Below are positions 2,986 through 53,735 of a stretch of DNA of 64,000 nt, piece by piece (within the stretch, counting starts at the first letter, position 1; each line of letters starts with the position of its first letter). Source of the stretch: Siphonodentalium dalli (lineage: Eukaryota > Mollusca > Scaphopoda > Gadilida > Siphonodentaliidae); the NCBI GenBank assembly GCA_032622095.1, contig CP136061.1, positions 173,665,107 through 173,729,106 on the forward strand, written 5' to 3'. The position numbers and the translations under genes were made by a program. The notes under the pieces were generated by a model that made no database searches, was not told the DNA's origin, and saw nothing but the letters and a program-made list of their open reading frames with translations.

Positions 2986-3837
2986 TACAATCGGTAGACT
3001 CCGCCAACAAATTGCCTCTCTAGTGCAAAAAGTCTCAAAACACCAGCAGCCTTTGGTTCATCTTGACAATCCCATTCTCACAAATAATTTTATCACTCCA
3101 CTCGTAAGGTGGCCAAGATTATTATAAAATAATAAACTCTGCTACTATTGCATCAAAGTCTCAAATGAAATGGCAAGAAAAATATATTGTCTCATATATA
3201 CATATAGCCATAATGTGATGCCTGACACCAAGCTTCAATGGCTGCAATACAGGATAAATCACAGAATTCTTTCTTCTAAAAAATTCTCAAGATGGTCAAT
3301 ATAGAACAGAATGATAAATGTAATTGATGCATTATATTAAACCTGCAAAGATATTACCCACATTTTCTGGGAATGGCCTTATGTCCAAACCTTTTTGAAA
3401 GAATTTTTTTTATATATATTTCTTATCTAGGTATCTTTGCACACTTTAAAATGGATTTTAGTATTAATTGATTAATTGATTTGGAAAATAATATTAATCC
3501 TTCACACCCACCAGTCATCTCAACAACTGGTGCCACGCAAATCACATTAATTTGTTTGCAACTGAGAAGACATTAATCCTGGGACTGTCCTCAGTAGTAG
3601 AAAACCACATCTGAAATCTTTTCTGGCTCTTAATAAAACAATATATATATATATATATAGAACAGTTTACACCAGGCAGCCTATCTGTCACAACATTCCA
3701 ATAGATCTTAGATCAAGACACACACAAGAAGGCATAAAGTGAAAAGAAGTTTATTCAGTTTTAAAAGAATTGGTTCTTGTTAAAACAAGCATGGACAAAG
3801 ACACTCAGTAGCAATGACTCATAGTTCAAAAATTACT
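2986..3837. other. Non-coding stretch with inverted-repeat arm and AT microsatellite
   Basis: It contains the second arm (3421-3512) of the inverted pair with 854-945, and an (AT)n run at about 3641-3658. Nothing coding is visible. Confidence 0.6.
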
Positions 3838-4145
3838 CCACCCGTTTCCGAGATCTGGTCTGTGCATGCGCGAAGCTGGCGTCACACGGGCTCGGCGACC
3901 CGATAAAATTCGTATCCGGGGCAAGATACATTCACATAGCAAATTTCAAGTCGATAGCTCCACCCGTTTCAGAGATCTCATCTGCGCATGCGCGAAGCGG
4001 GCGCCGCACAGGCTCGCCAATACGACAACGACGACCACCTGGTCAAACTACACACACGTACCAAGTTTCGTCCCGATCGGTCGAGAATCGTAGATTTGTA
4101 TAAATGACATACATACAGAGACAGACAGAGGTCTTCAAAATATAT
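3838..4145 (+). repeat. GC-richer ~120-bp tandem repeat with GCGCATGCGCGA motif
   Basis: The segment 'ctccacccgtttc.gagatct..tctg.gcatgcgcgaag' occurs at about 3838 and again at about 3958. It is followed by a degenerate third unit and a short 'acagagacagacagag' microsatellite. The composition is clearly more GC-rich than its surroundings. A 75-codon open frame crosses the array, but it follows the repeat rather than any known protein. Confidence 0.6.
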
Positions 4146-4640
4146 AGGAGATGAGTGTGGGTCATTCAGTGGGTGATTTGAGACACCAGTTGAACGTTTT
4201 TAGACACTCCTGGTGGTTTGAGACAATCATTGTGTGGCTTGGGACATGCATTGGATGATTATGGACACTCATCTGTTGGTTTTGGAACACCAATTGGATA
4301 GTTTGTGGTACACTTAATGGTTTGAGACACCCATTTGTGTGGTTTGGGACACAACGTGCATGAATTAGGACATTCGATGGGTGACATATGGTAGTTGTTG
4401 GATGGTATGGAACCTACACTGGACTGGTTTGGGCTCTATTTGGATGGTTTGTGACACTATTTGGGTGCACTGTGTTACAATATTATGTGGCTTGTGACAC
4501 TTGTTGGCTGATTTGTGACGCCTGTTCTATGGACTGGAACACTCACCGAATAATTTGGTATATTATTAAGGTGACATTCATTGGATGTATTTCTATGGCA
4601 TGTTTGGTCTATTTCTATTTCTTGTTTGGTTGCTTTGGAC
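4146..4640. repeat. Degenerate ~35-bp minisatellite (GGTTTGAGACACTCATT-like)
   Basis: Successive blocks read roughly 'tggtttgagacactcattgga' with heavy drift, giving more than ten units. The 95-codon hydrophobic open frame inside is a by-product of the repeat phase. Confidence 0.7.
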
Positions 4641-11389: not shown

Positions 11390-11627
11390 AAAATGTCAGA
11401 CTTCACTTGCAATTTTTAATATTTTGTGGAGTTATGTCCCTGCCCACATTTGACCCAGTGACCTCATTTGAACAAATCTGAATGTGAGTCACCTAGGCAA
11501 TATCCACACCAACTATGAACCCATTCGGTCTTATGGTTCCAGAGGAGAAGTTTAAAGAATTGTTGACAGACGGACGAGGAGTGATGACTATAGCTCCACC
11601 AGAGACTTTGTCTCAGGTGAGCCAAAA
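11390..11627 (+). mobile_element. Hairpin-tailed core repeat with AGCTCCACC..GGTGAGC tail
   Basis: A single core ('gttatgtccctgcccacatttgacc...caccaactatgaac') is followed by GACAGACGGACGAGG, then a hairpin at 11592-11622 with arms AGCTCCACCAGAGAC and GTCTCAGGTGAGC, then CAAAAA. The same tail ends the array at 13588. Confidence 0.7.
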
Positions 11628-12889: not shown

Positions 12890-13593
12890 ATTTGAATAAC
12901 TTTTTTTTAAGAGTTATGTCCCTGGGCCCTGGCTCTGCCCCTATTTGACCCAGTGACCCCATTTGAACAAATCTGAACCCCAGTCACACAAGGACTCTCC
13001 ATACCAAATGTAAGCTAAATCGGTCAAATGGTTCAAAAGAAGAAGTAATTCTAAGAATTACTATGGAGGAATAGAGTTATGGCCCTGGTTTCTCAACTAA
13101 TCAACCTGGTGACCTCATTTTAACAAATCTGAATGTGAGTCACCTAGGGAACATCCACACCAAATATGAATCCATACGGCCTTATAGTTCAGTAAAAGAA
13201 GTCGTTCTAAGAATTACTATGAAGGAATAGAGTTATGGCCCTGGTTTCTCAACTAATCAACCTGGTGACCTCATTTTAACAAATCTGAATGTGAGTCAAC
13301 TAGGGAACATCCACACCAAATATGAATCCATACGGCCTTATAGTTCAGTAAAAGAAGTCGTTCTAAGAATTACTATGGAGGAATAGAGTTATGGCCCTGC
13401 TTTCACAACTATTCCACCCAGTGACCTCATTTGAACAAATCTGAATGTGATTCACCTAGGGAACATCCACACCAAATATGAACACGTTAATTCTTACGGT
13501 TCGGGACGAGAAGATGATTGTTGCCGGACGGACGACGGACGAGGAGTGATGACTATAGCTCCACCGGAGACTTCGTCTCAGGTGAGCTAAAAA
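12890..13593 (+). mobile_element. Core-repeat array (156-bp period) with AGCTCCACC hairpin tail
   Basis: Units beginning 'ctaagaattactatg' start at 13051, 13207 and 13363, an exact 156-bp period, with a divergent unit upstream. The array ends in GGACGGACGACGGACGAGG, then a hairpin at 13558-13588 (AGCTCCACCGGAGAC/GTCTCAGGTGAGCT), then AAAAA. The next core unit starts immediately after. Confidence 0.85.
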
Positions 13594-24109: not shown

Positions 24110-24475
24110 GTTGAAGCCCCCCCAATATCTCGTGCAAGAATTGTTACATCGTGAACATCCATACCAAATTTCATTGAGATCCCAGTACAACTGTTGAAGT
24201 TACGACATGAACAGACACCAGACAGACCAAAAAGCCAACATTTCCAGATAAACAAAGATGAATAACTCTAGAATGGAAAATCCGAACAAAACGATGGAAC
24301 CCTCTATTTAATGTCCTCATAGTAGTGAACATCCATACCTAATTTGATTGAGATCCGAGCACTATTGTTCAAGTTATGACATGAACAGACATCGGACGGA
24401 CGGACGGACGGAACGACAGGTGCAAAACAGTATACCCCCCTTTTTTTTTTTAAAGGGGGTATAGCAATGAACTTA
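24110..24475 (+). mobile_element. Two core units with TATACCCCCC..GGGGGTATA hairpin tail
   Basis: Two ~190-bp units share 'gtgaacatccatacc.aattt.attgagatcc' and 'ttacgacatgaacagacac'. A (GGAC)n microsatellite follows at about 24394-24411, then a hairpin at 24431-24463 with a poly-T/A loop. Confidence 0.75.
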
Positions 24476-25835: not shown

Positions 25836-26456
25836 AATTTGTATACACATGGAATGCCACAGGCCTAATGAGCTCTTCGACTTTCCTGACAAGATTTCTT
25901 GAATTTAATCATATCGATGTGGTAGGTGTCAGTGAACACTAGCTACATGAACACAATGCAGATTATGCGCAATGTTTAAGTAAGCAATATGATTATCACG
26001 TTGTCTGTGACGCTTCGCAATGTCTACCCATGCAGAAGGGTAGATATTCCGGTGGTGTTTTACTTATGTGCATAAAAAATTTGCAAAATACGTCACCACT
26101 CTTCCAATTCCAGATGATAGGATTGCTGGCATTCAAATGCAAATTAGCCGACATCAGTATCTATATATCTTCCAGATATATCTTCCTTCTACGAATCACA
26201 CTCTTGACTTTTACAAAGAGTATTTACTAAAGGTCAGCAATGTTTTCGATACATATAGTTCACTGGCCAAAATAATCATAATGGGCGACTTTAAAGCCAA
26301 TCCGGACAAAAAGGGTCCAAGGAATTCTGCATTCAAGAAATTTGTCAAAGCTCTAAAATGTTTCTCTGTGAATCACTCGAGATGCATATACCGAAATAGT
26401 TCTACGTGTATTCCTTATAATAGTAATAAAAGGTCAGCCGACCACAGTGTCCACTG
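25836..26456 (+). pseudogene. APE-type endonuclease fragment of a non-LTR retrotransposon (LINE)
   Basis: The early part translates to WNATGLMSSSTFLTRFLEF, then IDVVGVSEH followed by an in-frame stop, then GRYSGGVLLMCI. After one frameshift near 26060 the frame continues with IYLPSTNHTLDFYKEYL and IIIMGDFKANPDKKG. These correspond to successive apurinic-endonuclease motifs: the W-N start, the catalytic Glu of 'SEH', the 'GGV' strand and the 'GDFNA'-type Asp/Asn. This enzyme nicks target DNA for target-primed reverse transcription. Only the N-terminal domain is left; no reverse transcriptase follows, because core repeats begin at about 26430. It is broken by at least one stop and one frameshift, so it is an inactive fragment. 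Confidence 0.8.
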
Positions 26457-27133
26457 AAAACGTGGCAAGTCGACGCCGCTTTGTTAAAGAAATTAAAAAA
26501 AATGTTGAAATGTTCTAAGTCGAAAGGGTTAATAGTTCCGTAAAGAAATAATTTTTCCGTCATCTATATACATGTTGCACATCTCCAATATGTGGGTAAT
26601 AATACTCTGAAGTTTCAAATATCTACGATCAAAACTGTAGGAGGCCCATATTAAACTCTGGGAAAAATCATTGGATCAAACTCAATTTCGAACTTGACCT
26701 GTATTTTGATATAAGTAATCCACTAAAAAAACGGGTTTTACATATAAACAATCCAAAATCAAGTTATCATCCGGAAACCAAAAAACAGAAGCAAAACTGA
26801 ATTTTCTATGTCGAAAAAGGGGCATAGCTCTGCCAAAAATGGTCGGGCAGAACCCAAGTTTGAACTTGACCTGTGTTTTGCTGGGAGAAAGTAATATACC
26901 AAACTCTACTAAAGTTATCATCCGGAAACCAACTTTCAGGGGTTTTCTAAGTAAAATAAAAGGCCGCTCGGCCACAGTGTCCCCCGAACCGGTGGCTTCA
27001 TTTGGAGCGGAGGCTTTTTAGAAGTATACTATATGGATAAGACACTTAAAGTCAAAATATAACTTCAAATTGGCACAAAATGAAGAAAATTACAAGAAAA
27101 ATTGAATTTTCTAAGTCGAAAAGCCCATAACTG

Positions 27134-27507
27134 AGGCCCCCACCCCCCATCCCCCTGGAATACGGAATACCACTTAACACAGAGGGTGGAATACGGAATA
27201 CCACTTAACAGCCATATGGAATTTTCCGGATAAATTTCTATTGCCGTACGAACGCCGGTCATCCCGCAGTGTCCACCTCTAAAATGAAGATGATCGACGA
27301 TCTGTATCGGTATGTTAAACCGTGAATTTATTGTGAAAAAAATCGCATTTATATTATTATTATGATCATTTTTTGGAAGGTGTCGAAGGTCGACGTACGA
27401 ATACGGTATTTTTGGAATACCGAATACCTCCTAACAGATGGGCCGGAATACGGCGTACCTCATAACAGGGCATGGAATACGGCGTACGAAAAAGGGGGTG
27501 GGGGCCT
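27134..27507. mobile_element. 374-bp MITE with 14-bp perfect TIR and 8-bp duplication (hAT-like)
   Basis: The ends are AGGCCCCCACCCCC and GGGGGTGGGGGCCT, a perfect 14-bp inverted repeat. CATAACTG precedes and CATAACTC follows (27126-27133, 27508-27515), a 7/8 duplication. Skipping the element restores the core-repeat phrase 'cccataactctgagaaaaatc'. The interior is built of 'ggaatacgg.ataccacttaaca' repeats, at least five. Confidence 0.85.
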
Positions 27508-28543
27508 CATAACTCTGAGAAAAATCATGGGTTCAAACTCAAATTTGAACTTGACCTGTATCGTGATATGACTGATCCATATAAAAACGGTATTTGCAAT
27601 TAAAGGATCCAAACTTGAGATATCATCCGGAAACCGAAAAAGTGAGAAATTTTCTAAGTAAAACAAGTCGAACAATAGGTCGGTAGACCTCATGTCCGCC
27701 TCTAAGCATCGGCTTGATACGACCGTTGTTTGCGCATAAAAATTGGCATGGTGAAACACGAAATCGAATTTGATCTGTCTTATGTGCTAGTAAACCTACA
27801 TGTACCAAATTTAATTTCATTCAGTACACATTTACTAAAGTTATCATCCGGAAACCTCAAATTGGCAAAAATTCTAAGTCAAAAAGGGACATAACTCTGG
27901 TGAAAATTGGCGGGCGGAACCCGAATTCGAACTTGACCTGTGTTTTACTGGGAGAAAGACACATACCAAATTTGGTTTAAATCTGATTAACTCTACTAAA
28001 GTTATCATCCGGACACCAACTTTTGGGGTTTTATATGTCGGATCGGCAGAAAAAAAAGGGCCATAACTCTCGCAAAAATTATCGGATTAAACCGAAATTC
28101 GAACTTGAGTTGTATTTTGATATAAGTAATCCACAAAAAAAACGGGTTTTTCAAATAAACAATCCAAAATAAAGTTATCATCCAGAAACCAAAAAACAGA
28201 AGAACAACTGAATTTTCTATGTCAAAAAAGGGGCATAACTCTGCCAAAAATAGTCGGGCAGACCTGTGTTTTGCTGGGAGAAAGTAATATACCAAATTTG
28301 GTTTGAATCCGATTAACGCTACTAAAGTTATAATCCGGAAACCAACTTTCAGGGGTTTTCTAAGTCATAACTCTTGCAAAAATGGGCGGAGCAAACCCAT
28401 ATTCGAACTTAACCTTTATTTTGGTCTGATAGACTCACCTATGAAATTTGCTTTTGATCTAATAACCGAAACTAAAGTTATCATCCGGAAACCATTTCCG
28501 GACGCACGGACACACGGACGGACGGACACCGGCTATTTTAATA

Positions 28544-28576
28544 GTCCCCCGATTTTTTTTTTTCGGGGGACAAAAA
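28544..28576 (+). other. Hairpin tail, GTCCCCCGA type
   Basis: Arms GTCCCCCGA and TCGGGGGAC flank a poly-T loop and are followed by AAAAA. A CGGACGGACGGAC microsatellite precedes. On the plus strand it resembles a Rho-independent terminator, but in this context it is the 3' end of a repeat element. Confidence 0.8.
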
Positions 28577-28943
28577 GTGGCATAACTCTGGTGAAAACTG
28601 GCGGACAGAACCAGAATTCGAAATTGACCCGTCTTTTCTGCTAGTAAACCCACATACCAAATTTAATTTAATTTGGTTCACTCTAACTAAAGTTATCATC
28701 CGGAAACCTCGGACGCACGCACACCGTGCGTGCTGATTATAATAGTCCTCCGAACCCGTTGGGTCGGCGGACAAAAATGGCCATAACTCATGTAAAAATA
28801 ATTAGACAGAACCTATATTCAAACTTGGCCTGTAGTTTTAGCTGGGAAATACACATACCAGCTTTGGTTTAGCTCAAATAATCAAAACTGGAGTTATCGG
28901 TCGGAAACCAAATTGTTATGAAATTGGTCAAATTCTAAATTAA

Positions 28944-30812
28944 AACGAGAGGCCGATCACGATCGGCAGATGTTTAACCCATACCTTGGCGATAGCGATT
29001 AGCTATTTCTATAAATTTTATAAATCCTTACATCAACCTTTTCATGAGTGCTAAAGTTTCAACAATTCACACTTAATATAGTGATCATGTGAAAAATATT
29101 TAGTTATCACATTGTGTCAACAGGATTGGCGGAGGATGTTAATATTTTTAAGCAAATAAACCAAATGACCCTCACTATGCAGGTTAGGGGTGTGTTCTTG
29201 TCAACTATGCCAAGAACTACATGTATAAACATAATCAATGGAAATATTTGAGTTATCAAATCGGATAGAATAGGGTTAATCTTACCCAAACTAATGAACT
29301 GATAAACACAAAATAGTCTATACAAAGCATGTCATTGGATTTAGAAACCCATACAATAAGTCAGTCTCAAGAATACCAGCACCATTAATATTACCCTGGA
29401 GCCCAAATGCAATTGAGGGAATTTAAAAATAAGACATTTCCTCTAATGATGAATATATAATTGGTGATTTATTGAAACCCTTACTGAACCTGGATCAAAG
29501 TGAAATGGATAATATTATATCTGTCTATCGCATAATATGTGTCTATGGAATGGTTTAATTTTAATCCCAAATCCATGCAAATCAAAAGTGGATCACCATC
29601 AACCTGGACATAATATAGGAGAATGATCAAATGAAAAGCATCAAAACCATATGATGTGTGGAGAGGGTTAATCATTTGCAATGACATCATAGCATTGAAC
29701 TGGGAATGTGTGGATTAATTTTTGTCTAAGATAAGACAACAGTGTATGTAGACAACAATGTCTGTAAAACATCCCTACAAAGTAACAATGGACTATTCCA
29801 ATTTAATATTTTAGAATAGGTGTCCTATATGTTTACATAAACTTTATTAATGAACCTGTTTCAGTAAAGGGGTTAACTTAATATTGCACAGAAAACAGAA
29901 CTCCACCAGATAGCCATCAATCAATTTGACATTAATATGATAACAAATCCTGCCAGCCAACAGTACCACTATCAGGCTTTATAGCATGTCCCTAGTGATA
30001 ATTAACTCATTTCAATTACACACATGGTCTGCGAGATATGTTCTCTTAAAATTCCCAGCAGTAATTACTTGAATTATAAAGGGTCATATAACTCTGTTAA
30101 AATATATCGGATCAAACCCATATTCGAACTCGATATGTATTTAGGGGTGATAAATTCATATACCAAATTTGGTGATGATCAGATGAAAAATGTTTTGAGT
30201 CATAGAAGCTTGGTGAATTCTAAGTAAACATAAGAGTGAAAACGGTTAATTAAACAATACCAAAAACCATACAGACGCAGAACATGCTAAGAAAAACCTA
30301 GGTAAGAAATATGAGGCAGATCAGAAGAAACTTATTGCATTGGATAGCATGTGTGTAAAGGGTTAATTATTTACTAAACCGATCAACCAATCAATACCAA
30401 AAACTATACAGATGAGGGGCATGTCATCATAAACCTACATATCAAATATGAACACAATCGGACAAAATATACTTCGGTTTTAGCATCGGATTTTTGTTTT
30501 TTTAATTTTATTTTTGAAAAAAGGGTCATAACTCCTTTAAAATAAATCGAATCAAACCCATATTCGAACTCGATCTGTATTTTGGGCTCTGAAACTCGCA
30601 TACCAAATTTGGTTCCGATCAGATAAAAATTGTTCAAGTTATGACAGAATGTGTGAATTCGAGGTCGAAAAAGGGCCATAACTCCGTAAAACAAATTCAG
30701 ATCAAACCCATATTTGAACTCGATCTGTATTTTGGTCTGAGAAACTCATATACAAAATTTGGTTCCGATCGGATAGAAAATTTTGAGTTATCGCACCATG
30801 CGTAAAGTGTCC

Positions 30813-30843
<31 letters not shown>

Positions 30844-30935
30844 GACGGACGGACGGACGGACGGACACACGACGAGTGGTCAATCCGGACGTCGACATTA
30901 TGTTTACCATACTATGGTATGGGTAAACATAAAAA
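28944..30935 (+). mobile_element. Full-length ~2-kb hairpin-ended element, copy 2
   Basis: It starts AACGAGAGGCCGATCACG and ends with the TGTTTACCATAC/GTATGGGTAAACA hairpin (30901-30929) and AAAAA. It is collinear with 5281-7306 through 'tttcaacaattcaca', 'aagaataccag.accatt.atatta', 'gcccaaatgcaatt' and 'acttgaattataaagggtcat'. The microsatellite at about 30815-30866 is a clean (CAGA)n-(CGGA)n run. The left flank 'caaattctaaattaa' is core-repeat text, so it sits inside the array. Confidence 0.85.
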
Positions 30936-31845
30936 GGTCGGTAGACCTCATGTCCGCCTCTAAGCGTTGGCTTGATTCGACCGTTGTTTGCGCATAAAAA
31001 CCTGACTTTAGTGCTAGTAAACCTACATACCAAATTTAATTTCATTCAGTACACATTTACTAAAGTTATCATCAGGAAACCTCAAATTGGCAAAAATTCT
31101 AAGTAAAAAAGGGACATAACTCTGGTGAAAATTGGCGGGCGGAACCCGAATTCGAACTTGACCTGTGTTTTGCTGCGAGAAAGACACATACCAACTTTGG
31201 TTCAAGACAAATAATCCAAACTGGAGTTATCGGTCGGAAACCAAAAATGTTAACAGACGGTCAAATTATAAGTCGAAAAAGGGCCGTAACTCGTGTAAAA
31301 ATAATTGGACGGAACTCATATTCTTGGCCTGTATCTTTAGCTGGGAAATACACATGACTTTGGTTCAGATCAAATAATCCAAACTGGAGTTATCAGTCGG
31401 AAACCAAAAATGTTAACAGACGGTAAAATTCTAAGTCGAATAAGGGGCATAACTCTGGTGAAAATTGGCGGACAGAACCAGAATTCGAACTTGACCTGTC
31501 TCTTCTGCTAGTAAACCCACATACCAAAGTTTATTTAATTTGGTTCGCTCTAACTAAAGTTATCATCCGGAAACCTCGGACACACGACGCACACACGGAC
31601 GCACAGGCTGATTATAATAGTCCTCCGAACCCTTTGGGTCGGCGGACAAAAAGGTCGGTAGACCTCATGTCCGCCTCTAAGCGATGGCTTGATACGACCG
31701 TTGTTTGCACATAAAAATTGGCATGGCGGAACACAAAATCGAATTTGATCTGTCTTTTGTGCTAGTAAACCTACATATACCAAATTTAATTTCATTCAGT
31801 AACTGAAGTTATCCGGAAACCTCAAATTGGCAAAAATTCTAAGTC
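30936..31845 (+). repeat. Core-repeat array with GGTCGGTAGACC and GTCCTCCGA tails
   Basis: Copies of the 65-bp GGTCGGTAGACC segment lie at about 30936-31000 and 31653-31713. The outer GGTCG/CGACC can pair. A GTCCTCCGAACCC hairpin at 31620-31647 is followed by AAAAA. The rest is ~160-bp cores ('aactctggtgaaaattggcgg'). Confidence 0.8.
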
Positions 31846-32817
31846 AACAAGAGCTACGCTGGGCGTGCAATATACGCCCTCTCTTGGGTCGGCGGAAACT
31901 GGTAAAAAAGGGGCATAACTCTGGTAAAAATTTGCGGACGGAACTCAAATTTGAACTTGACCTGGGTTTTGGTGGGAGAAAGTAATATACCAAATTATCA
32001 TTGAATCCGATAAGCTATAGTAAAGTTATCATCCGGACAACAAATTTCAGGGATTTTCTAAGTCAAATTACGTCAAATAAGGGGCATAACTCTGGTGAAA
32101 ATTGGCGGACGGAACCCAAATTCGAACTTGAGCTGTCTTTTCTCCTAATAAACCCACATACCAAATTTGATTGAAATCGGTTCACTCTAACTAAAGTTAT
32201 CATCCGGACAACAAATTTCAGGGATTTTCTAAGTCAAATTACGTCAAAAAAGGGGCCATAACTCTCGCAAAAATTATCGGATTAAAACGAAATTCGGACT
32301 TGAGCTGTATTTTGATATATGTAATCCACAAAAAAACGGGTTTTGCGTATAATCATTCCAAAATCGAGTTATCATCCGGAAACCAAAAAACATAAGAAAA
32401 ACTGAATTTTCTGAGTCGAAAAAGGGGCATAACTCTACCAAAAATGGTCGGACAGAACCCAAGTTCGAACTTGACCTGTGTTTTGGTGGGAAAAAGTAAT
32501 ATACCAAATTTGGATTCATTCCGATAAACTATACTAAAGTTATCATCCGGACTACAAATTTCAAGGATTTTCTAAGTCAAAAAACGTTAAATAAGGGGCA
32601 TAACTCCTGTGAAAATTGGCGGGCGGAACCCAAAATCGAACTTGAACTTACTTTTCGGCTAATAAACCCACATACCAAATTTTACTAATTTTGGTTCACT
32701 CTAACTAAAGTTATCATCCGGACAACAGGTTAACGGATGGACGCCCGCCCGCCCGGACGCCCGGACGGACGGACCAATACTATAATACGGCCTTTTTTTC
32801 AAAAGGGCGTATAAAAA
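31846..32817 (+). mobile_element. Nested hairpin-ended element with TACGGCC..GGGCGTA tail
   Basis: The start AACAAGAGCTACGCTGGGCG includes a GGGCGTGCAATATACGCCC hairpin. About five cores follow, then a CGCCCGCCCGGACGCCCGGA-type microsatellite, a TACGGCC/GGGCGTA hairpin (32786-32811) and TAAAAA. The left flank ends 'aaaattctaagtc' and the right flank begins 'gggacataactc'. Together these rebuild the usual junction 'ttctaagtcaaaaagggacataactc' seen at 27878, so this copy sits in the oligo-A of a relative. Confidence 0.8.
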
Positions 32818-33575
32818 GGGACATAACTCATGTAAAAATAACTGGACGAAACCCATATTCGAACTTGGCCTGTATCTTTAACTGGGAAATACACATACCA
32901 ACTTTGGTTCAGATCAAATAATCCAAACTGGAGTTATCGGTCGGAAACCAAAAATGTTAACAGATGGTCAAATTCTAAGTAAAAAAAAGGGGCATAACTC
33001 TGGTGAAAATTGGCGGACGGAACCAGAATTCGAACTTGACCTGTCTTTTCTGCTAGTAAACCCACATACCAAATTTAATTTAATTTGGTTCACTCTAACT
33101 AAAGTTATCATCCGGAAACCTCGGACGCACGCACGGACGTGCTGATTATAATAGTCCTCCGAACCCGTTGGGACGGCGGACAATAACAGTCATTGATTCG
33201 AAACATTACATCGCGTTATTAACGTAGATTCGGCTTTGACCTATTATACCGGCATTTGAGAAAACGTGATATCGGACAAAAATATCCCGCAATGAATGTA
33301 TATACTAAAGTTATCATCCGGACAACAAATTTCAAGGATTTTCTAAGTCAAAAAAAGCCAAATAAGGGGCATAACTCCGGTGAAAATTGGCGGGCGGAAC
33401 CCAAATTCGAACTTGAACTTACTTTTCGGCTAATAAACCCACATACCAAATTTTATTAAATTTGGTTCACTCTAACTAAAGTTATCATCCGGAAACCAGG
33501 TTAACGGACGCCCGGACGGACGGACAGACCAATTCTATACTACGGCCGTTTTTTCAAATGGGCGTATAAAAAATT
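32818..33575 (+). repeat. Core-repeat array end with GTCCTCCGA and TACGGCC tails
   Basis: Cores continue from 'gggacataactcatgtaaaaataactgg'. Hairpin tails occur at 33154-33181 (GTCCTCCGAACCC type) and 33541-33565 (TACGGCC/GGGCGTA, followed by TAAAAA). Unique sequence begins after 33575. Confidence 0.8.
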
Positions 33576-52912: not shown

Positions 52913-53735
52913 AACAAGAGGTGGCATCAGAGATGCTGTGTCTCGTTTTCGGTGGCTTACCGCCAATTGGTGTGCATCAGTATCGGTAGACTAATTAATA
53001 GGTAAAATCGAAAAATGACTAATTAATGGCCATAACTCCATCAAATTTTATCGGACCAGGCCGGTTTTCGAACTCGTCCGAGATATTCTTGGGAGACACC
53101 TATATACCAAATTTCAATCAAATCGGATAACGTTTGTTGAAGTTATCGCGCTAACAAGCTGAAAATTCATAAAAAATGACTAATTAAGGGCCATAACTCT
53201 ATCAAATTTTATCGGACGAGGCCGGTTTTTTGAACTCATCCGAGATATTCTTGGGAGACACCTATATACCAAATTTCAATCAAATCGGATAACGTTTGTT
53301 GAAGTTATCGCACTAACGAGCTGAAAATTCGTGAAAAATGACTAATTAAGGGCCATAACTATATCAAATTTTATCGGACGAGGCCGGTTTTCGAACTCAT
53401 CCGAGATATTCTTGGGAGACACCTATATACCAAATTTCAATCAAATCGGATAACGTTTGTTGAAGTTATCGCGCTAACGAGCTGAAAATTCAAAGGGCCA
53501 TAACTCTGTAATAAATGTGCGGACGAACCCGATTTTTTTGTCTGCAGCTTACGTGCATGGATATGTACTCAAACACCAAAATTTTTTAAATTTTAAATTT
53601 TAAAATTTTAATCCGTCAATAAACGGTTGAGTTATAAGCAAAACACGCCGCCCGCCCCGCCCGTACGCCGCCCGCCCCGCCCACCGTCCCTCATCAAACT
53701 ATAAGTCGAGTTTTGGAAAAAAACTCGACTAAAAA
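52913..53735 (+). mobile_element. Complete hairpin-ended element nested in another's A-run
   Basis: It starts AACAAGAGGTGGCATCAGAG with a GCATC/GATGC hairpin. Three near-identical cores start at 53016, 53177 and 53339 (161-162 bp). A CCGCCCGCCCCGCCCG microsatellite appears twice. The tail hairpin GTCGAGTTTT/AAAACTCGAC (53705-53729) is followed by TAAAAA. Flanks 'ccataactccataacaa' and 'aactcggatcaaaccc' together match the intact host at 14718-14745 ('ataactccgtaaaaaaactcggatcaaaccc'). The insertion point is thus inside the host's oligo-A with no other sequence lost. Confidence 0.85.

Follow-up and report, generated by a model that had tools for sequence, protein, structure and literature searches.

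To our knowledge, it is an open question in bivalves how several transposon families come to share a single satellite-like repeat. Helentron-type non-autonomous rolling-circle elements (HINEs), their pairs of subterminal inverted repeats (subTIRs), their central repeats, and composite Helitrons produced by self-insertion are already known (PMC4067079, PMC3627910, PMC5148889, PMC7492417). The left flank of a HINE is described as a 5' subTIR hairpin followed by a GTCC-type microsatellite (PMC7492417), and the 5' asymmetric terminal inverted repeat (ATIR) of Helitron2 lies in a 5' hairpin (PMC3627910). For repeats carried by several families, recombination, junction fragments, and cut-and-replace have been discussed (PMC7492417). 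The locus described here occupies positions 26430-33575 of a 64,000-nt window, the whole stretch of DNA analyzed, from the scaphopod Siphonodentalium dalli (assembly GCA_032622095.1, contig CP136061.1, positions 173,665,107 to 173,729,106). It is a pile of HINEs with at least four end classes (named B, C, D, and E), all on the minus strand. In these elements, matched ends are probably retained and inner arrays traded, through in-phase nested insertion of C elements followed by in-register deletion.

Within the interval, a 150-position core model has 26 matches, accompanied by GGAC-like microsatellites and terminal hairpins, and seven tails of the four classes are present (Table 1). Twenty core copies have at least 60% identity to a 90-nt reference, with a repeat length of about 150-170 bp. 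Given these core matches and tail positions, the core family of about 160 bp with GGAC-like microsatellites and terminal hairpins that the first-pass annotation of the window reported is real. Four of the seven hairpins it placed in the interval are indeed there, whereas three lie elsewhere in the window: the GTCGAGTTTT hairpin at 53705, AGCTCCACC at 11592 and 13557 (a third match, at 3956, is not such a hairpin), and TATACCCCCC at 24431, without AAAAA after it. The proposed order of hairpin, AAAAA, and next core applies to three of the seven interval tails but not to the other four, where the sequence continues into the next element at its left end (two) or into non-core DNA (two). The window contains 379 runs of five A (both strands), and 18 core starts are preceded by at least four A. 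Nor are all hairpins unrelated, as had been suggested, since the B tail of the window is 67-77% alike to its three C tails over 43 nt. Genome-wide searches covered 2.23 Gb on nine contigs and returned exact tail patterns for B (341), C (474), D (1229), and E (4249), with none for each of the backward-read controls; the hairpins are thus present in hundreds to thousands of other genomic copies per class, and these are counts of intact tails only because the patterns require an intact stem and AAAA.

The hairpins had been taken for 3' termini, but on the minus strand each tail reads TTTTT, a subTIR folded with an adjacent inverted copy, and then a GTCC-type microsatellite, which is the layout published for 5' subTIR hairpins. 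At the opposite end of the element, a second subTIR directly precedes what can be read as a short palindrome. The longest exact words common to both ends are 14 (B), 8 (C), 10 (D), and 8 nt (E), compared with at most 5 across classes; those of C, D, and E fall below the 11-bp family criterion given in PMC4067079 and within the 8-15 bp of Helitron2 subTIRs given in PMC3627910. As a single strand, one tail per class folds better than its shuffles (z -3.3 to -5.7). Far ends fold poorly (z 0.4 to -2.5), with the subTIR itself base-paired in the D fold; a palindrome can be made out there in each of B, C, and E, whereas that of D is weaker. In C, the subTIR is retained at both ends despite the hairpin mismatch that results. 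Three hallmarks of a HINE were found: matching subTIRs at both ends, a 5' subTIR folded with its adjacent inverted repeat and followed by a microsatellite (judged from the one folded tail per class), and central tandem repeats, with core matches in C, D, and E copies. Among the B loci, 13 of 20 have at least one core match (in L052 outside the element) and 7 of 20 have none. This end layout together with the central repeats supports the earlier assignment to the Helentron/HINE class with a pearl-like plan. AAAAA is the consensus at the right border of C, D, and B, although the search patterns themselves demanded AAAA. Across the 20 B loci (L041-L060), B ends surround widely differing interiors, some of them core arrays and others without a core match.

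The two ends of these elements occur as matched pairs. In a sample of 72 tails with their upstream DNA (20 C, 20 D, 20 B, and 12 E, from contigs C1 and C2), a far end was recognized in 52 copies, and the nearest far end belonged to the class of the tail in 51 of the 52, whereas shuffles gave a mean of 15.8 matches and a maximum of 28 in 10,000. No far end was recognized in the remaining 20 (C 6, D 2, B 3, and E 9, with 2.2 kb fetched for E); in many E copies it may be located farther away than this. In the sole mismatch, L005, the C tail has B parts on either side, a far end upstream and a tail downstream, which makes it a C element in a B host. In the sampled copies, the 3' end is specific to each class and has a subTIR that matches the one at the 5' end.

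To examine the arrays between these ends, 171 cores covering at least 115 model positions were clustered, taken from elements with a recognized far end and from four window elements, and are numbered here from the tail (-1 being adjacent to it). At 12% divergence, the 46 cores next to a tail sort entirely by class, with a single cluster each for C (15), D (19), B (8), and E (4), whereas cores of different classes cluster together at -2, -3, and -4. The tree of core -1 (53 rows) requires 3 label changes for four classes, which is the minimum, and the tree of core -2 (50 rows) requires 8, with a single clade rejected for both B (p-AU 0.001) and C (p-AU 0.002); the D copy of the window was excluded from both trees. 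The expectation that core and tail trees disagree is thus borne out for inner cores and fails for core -1. Because core -1 is concordant with the tail and the inner cores are discordant, the exchange lies inside the array and not at the core/hairpin joint. It had been proposed that a single core family freely acquires unrelated hairpins at this joint, with structure alone under selection. Four hairpin classes do stand beside related cores in one locus, and the tails fold better than shuffles, but both the core adjacent to the tail and the far end are class-specific in the sampled copies, the B and C tails are related, and C keeps its subTIR at both ends at the cost of a mismatch in the hairpin. 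We therefore consider such swapping highly improbable, and the idea of selection on structure alone was dropped, as the subTIR is shared by matched ends.

Divergence along individual arrays gives the same picture of fixed ends and exchanged interiors. The B element L047 differs from C-long, the C type with the corresponding array, by 29.0% at core -1 and by only 3.3, 2.8, and 4.4% at -2, -3, and -4, whereas it differs from other B elements by 4.5% at -1, 31.5% at -2, and 33.3% at -3 (1 to 6 comparisons each). Vertical descent from an ancestral HINE with a fixed array of core types, in which point changes separated B, C, and D and inner cores are orthologous, would not predict a B element so close to C-long at -2 and -3 and so distant from it at -1, nor a C far end that lies inside B ends between a core of the L055 type (see below) and C cores. 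The order of core types shared by C-long and D, with divergences of 8.2 and 9.9% at -3 and -2 against 16.9% at -1, could on the other hand reflect common descent with faster change near the ends. As a general account, descent of this kind is very unlikely; for the sharing of inner cores between C-long and D (8-10%), either common descent or an older exchange, in either direction, may apply.

Three arrangements of B-ended elements bear on how C interiors came to lie between B ends. In the first (stage i, L055, one copy seen), B ends enclose one inner core and a B core -1. The second, which is the type present in the window (stage ii), consists of a B far end, an L055-type core, a C far end, C-long cores -5 to -2, a B core -1, and a B tail. 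The third (stage iii, L047) has this order minus the C far end, so that B ends enclose C inner cores; its two junctions are in register, inside or between cores, with the left one inside a core. For the window type, the stretch from the L055-type core up to and including B core -1 is covered in 35 of the 39 other scored matches (the best 40 of 8,604 first-look candidates), and all five fetched copies have the full order. For the L047 type, 28 of the 39 other scored matches cover at least 97% of the query at 91-96% identity, and all three fetched copies are in the expected order, with the tail motif unrecognized in one (L117); for C-long, 37 of 39 cover at least 97%. The flanks read vary among the fetched composite copies. 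The composite and its reduced version are each multi-copy, and a reading in which B and C elements of the window overlap improperly was dropped for this reason. Since a C far end sits within B elements, the interior probably moved from C to B.

We propose that a C element would first insert after TTTTT between two cores of a B element. Its core -1 and 5' hairpin would then be lost by in-register deletion, leaving B as the one competent end pair, and the composite with B ends could move as a single unit until a second in-register deletion takes out the C far end. Homology and a common phase among the arrays would permit the exchange of interiors, and ends would be kept because both must match. 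The same combinations might instead have arisen during replication, when rolling-circle copying passed a C end and produced concatemers. C elements do lie head-to-tail (window 30936-33181 and L004), and for a chimera of Fusarium Helitron2, a nick at one 5' end and a stop at another 3' end have been proposed (PMC5148889). However, the composites have matched B ends rather than mixed ends, most C copies with a recognized far end are flanked by core on both sides, and both L047 junctions are in register, which makes read-through an unlikely source of these combinations.

Nested insertion with in-register deletion also accords with where C elements are found: in the sampled copies, C lies in phase between core units of other HINEs, and its flanks read as two sides of one core boundary. 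A core directly follows 19 of 20 C tails, beginning at core-model position 1 or 2 in 18, compared with 0 of 20 for D, 1 of 20 for B, and 0 of 12 for E (about 80 bp examined; 19/20 versus 1/52, Fisher 3e-15, although copies in shared contexts are not independent). Compared over 150 bp at 90%, the right flanks of the 20 C copies sort into 8 groups, of which 7 are cores, and the host tails, assigned partly by eye, are D2-like (11), D3-like (2), B (2), C (2), undecided (2; L003 and L017), or non-core (1; L006). If C rarely inserted in arrays, a few C-in-host composites multiplied by their hosts could also give this in-phase pattern. Eleven of the 20 copies have one right-hand core type in common at 90%, and in 10 of these the host tail is of a single D-like kind, with some of these tails degenerate and assigned by visual inspection; still, at least seven distinct core contexts occur and the host tails belong to several classes, so that multiplication by hosts is a doubtful explanation of the whole pattern. 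Core -2 of C-mid, another C type, differs by 6.3% from the right-hand core type of these 11 copies (own spread 8.1%) and by ~33% from the last core of C-mid, and C-mid may have gained a core from the common host in a similar way, with the data compatible with either direction. More tentatively, C might be specialized on other transposons, recognizing the HINE core boundary (on the element strand, TTTTT followed by a TCGACTTAG-like stretch) and nesting in phase, such that interior exchange would be a regular origin of new families.

Several points weigh against nesting and deletion as the route of exchange, or limit its evidence. Crossover, template switching, and gene conversion are not distinguished by the data. 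We infer the first insertion step, since a complete C element between cores -2 and -1 was not encountered in any L055-type B host (with the host subtype of L005 and L013 unchecked), and the L055 arrangement is known from one copy with no genome-wide count. All 72 sampled copies were hand-picked from the first-listed places on C1 and C2, with tandem arrays skipped, and some C copies may be host-copied, given the right-hand core type common to 11 of them. In the core analysis, C -1, D -1, and D -4 merge when clustered at 17%, the class branches at -1 are unstarred (85/93, 69/91, and 92/94), and B rows fetched for matching the chimera make up 8 of 15 at -2 and 8 of 16 at -1. Class D remains on one side of a branch at -2, and its mixing therefore amounts to no more than the closeness of C-long to D. 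Position labels are counted from the tail, so that unequal arrays may pair different paralogous cores. Among the composite copies, the flanks of L113 and L118 have a short repeat in common. Moreover, no autonomous partner is tied to any B, C, D, or E end.

Helitron_like_N genes are nevertheless common in the assembly, with 151 matches (150 scored of 457 candidates). One Rep frame among them has 2,864 aa, and the part of it read also has OTU and DUF6570 domains. No Rep element was shown to end in these hairpins, the ends of the Rep loci read being not reached or not recognized. In related Rep copies, E-type far ends occur upstream of Rep in four of four and a B-type far end downstream in three of four, but these are not shown to be termini because homology continues beyond them. 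The B-type far end beside the 2,864-aa frame was likewise rejected as a terminus, since it belongs to a decayed HINE and the homology of Rep copies runs past it. The shared DNA around copies of the long Rep frame in L095, L096, and L102-L111 contains HINE ends of type E upstream of the frame and decayed HINEs of type B downstream of it. D and B tails repeated in tandem with a spacing of about 11 kb were also considered as autonomous elements; the unit read of each is a duplicated segment without a Rep-sized frame (longest frames 226 aa for D and 181 aa for B). Tandem D-tailed units with spacings of about 14.5 and 11.2 kb lie near a contig end (G000:C1:739508-924182).

Table 1. Elements and tails of the HINE locus and their positions in the window
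Feature	Position	Strand	Remarks
B-type far end, variant A, of a HINE	26432-26644	minus	no own tail found beside it
B-ended composite HINE	26956-28576	minus	B far end, L055-type core, C far end, C-long cores, B core -1, B tail
B far end of composite	26962-26973; 26978-26987		palindrome; subTIR
Extra stretch within composite	27133-27507		~375 bp, missing from relatives listed
L055-type core of composite	27506-27638
C far end embedded in composite	27678-27700
C-long cores of composite	27737-27860, 27881-28028, 28054-28193, 28225-28354
B core -1 of composite	28364-28504
B tail	28544-28571
C core -1 and C tail (true 5' end)	28572-28772	minus	core 28572-28718, 97% to C core -1; tail 28745-28772
E HINE	28952-30931	minus	palindrome 28952-28967, subTIR 28970-28985, core matches 30078 to 30802, tail 30900-30930
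C HINE, both ends	30936-31652	minus	far end 30936-30958, tail 31620-31647
C HINE, both ends, split by D HINE	31653-33181	minus	far end 31653-31675, tail 33154-33181
D HINE within the preceding C HINE	31847-32816	minus	subTIR 31871-31879, five cores, tail 32786-32811; 97% to L038
Second D HINE, last core and tail	33361-33571	minus	core 100% to a D core -1
C tails (start)	28745, 31620, 33154
D tails (start)	32786, 33541
E tail (start)	30901

Among the elements of the locus (Table 1), the C core -1 and tail to the right of the composite probably belong to an outer C element that was interrupted in phase by the B composite. A C core also comes in phase after the D HINE that splits a C element, and no D far end was found in the window beside the second D HINE. 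The composite includes an extra stretch: no other listed match aligns to positions 178-549 of the composite query, and in many of them the aligned part up to position 174 is joined directly to the part that begins near 550. This stretch holds GGAATACGGAATACC-like repeats. Positions 30000-30400 of the E HINE have 39 other matches at 95-97% identity among the best 40 scored. The AGCTCCACC hairpin at 13557-13592 and the GTCGAGTTTT hairpin at 53705-53722 also directly precede E-type cores, and further HINE families besides C may accordingly nest in arrays. Outside the locus, window positions 3832-4151 have 77-92% matches to DNA beside two Helitron Rep genes (L093 and L094) and, on this similarity, are probably a piece of a coding Helitron family.

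The behavior of these HINEs suggests that both ends and the last core act as a unit and that the rest is interchangeable. A single assembly contains multiple copies of the C-long source and of both derived stages, and the route is therefore testable by counting junctions. In the open-licence literature searched, we found no description of in-phase nesting as a means by which inner arrays pass from one matched end pair to another, although subscription journals may have one. Among the closest described systems is Cg_HINE of Crassostrea gigas, which likewise has a 5' subTIR, inverted repeat, and GTCC/GTCY microsatellite in one flank, a 3' subTIR in the other, short arrays with repeats of 140-180 bp, and no autonomous partner tied to it in that account (PMC7492417); the palindrome beside its 3' subTIR and its insertion at oligo-T are features that the elements described here probably have as well. 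There, a repeat cluster is tied to one flank pair, and related flanks may hold unrelated repeats, whereas here one inner repeat type occurs between different end pairs. The pearl elements CvE, CvA, MgE, and DTC84 (via PMC7492417 and PMC5139131) have the same plan of an array of ~160-bp cores plus a microsatellite, a comparison made by plan alone. Helitron2 is similar in that its 5'-ATIR lies 0-2 bp from the 5' end in a hairpin, and probably also in that its 3'-ATIR lies just before a 3' hairpin and insertion follows TTTT (PMC3627910), but no coding copy with the ends described here was found. For the composite and chimeric FoHelis, nested self-insertion followed by loss of inner termini has been proposed to yield composites (PMC5148889), as in the route proposed here. 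Unlike in that account, the successive stages in Siphonodentalium dalli are multi-copy, insertion is in phase with the repeat array, and the array is swapped while both end modules are kept.

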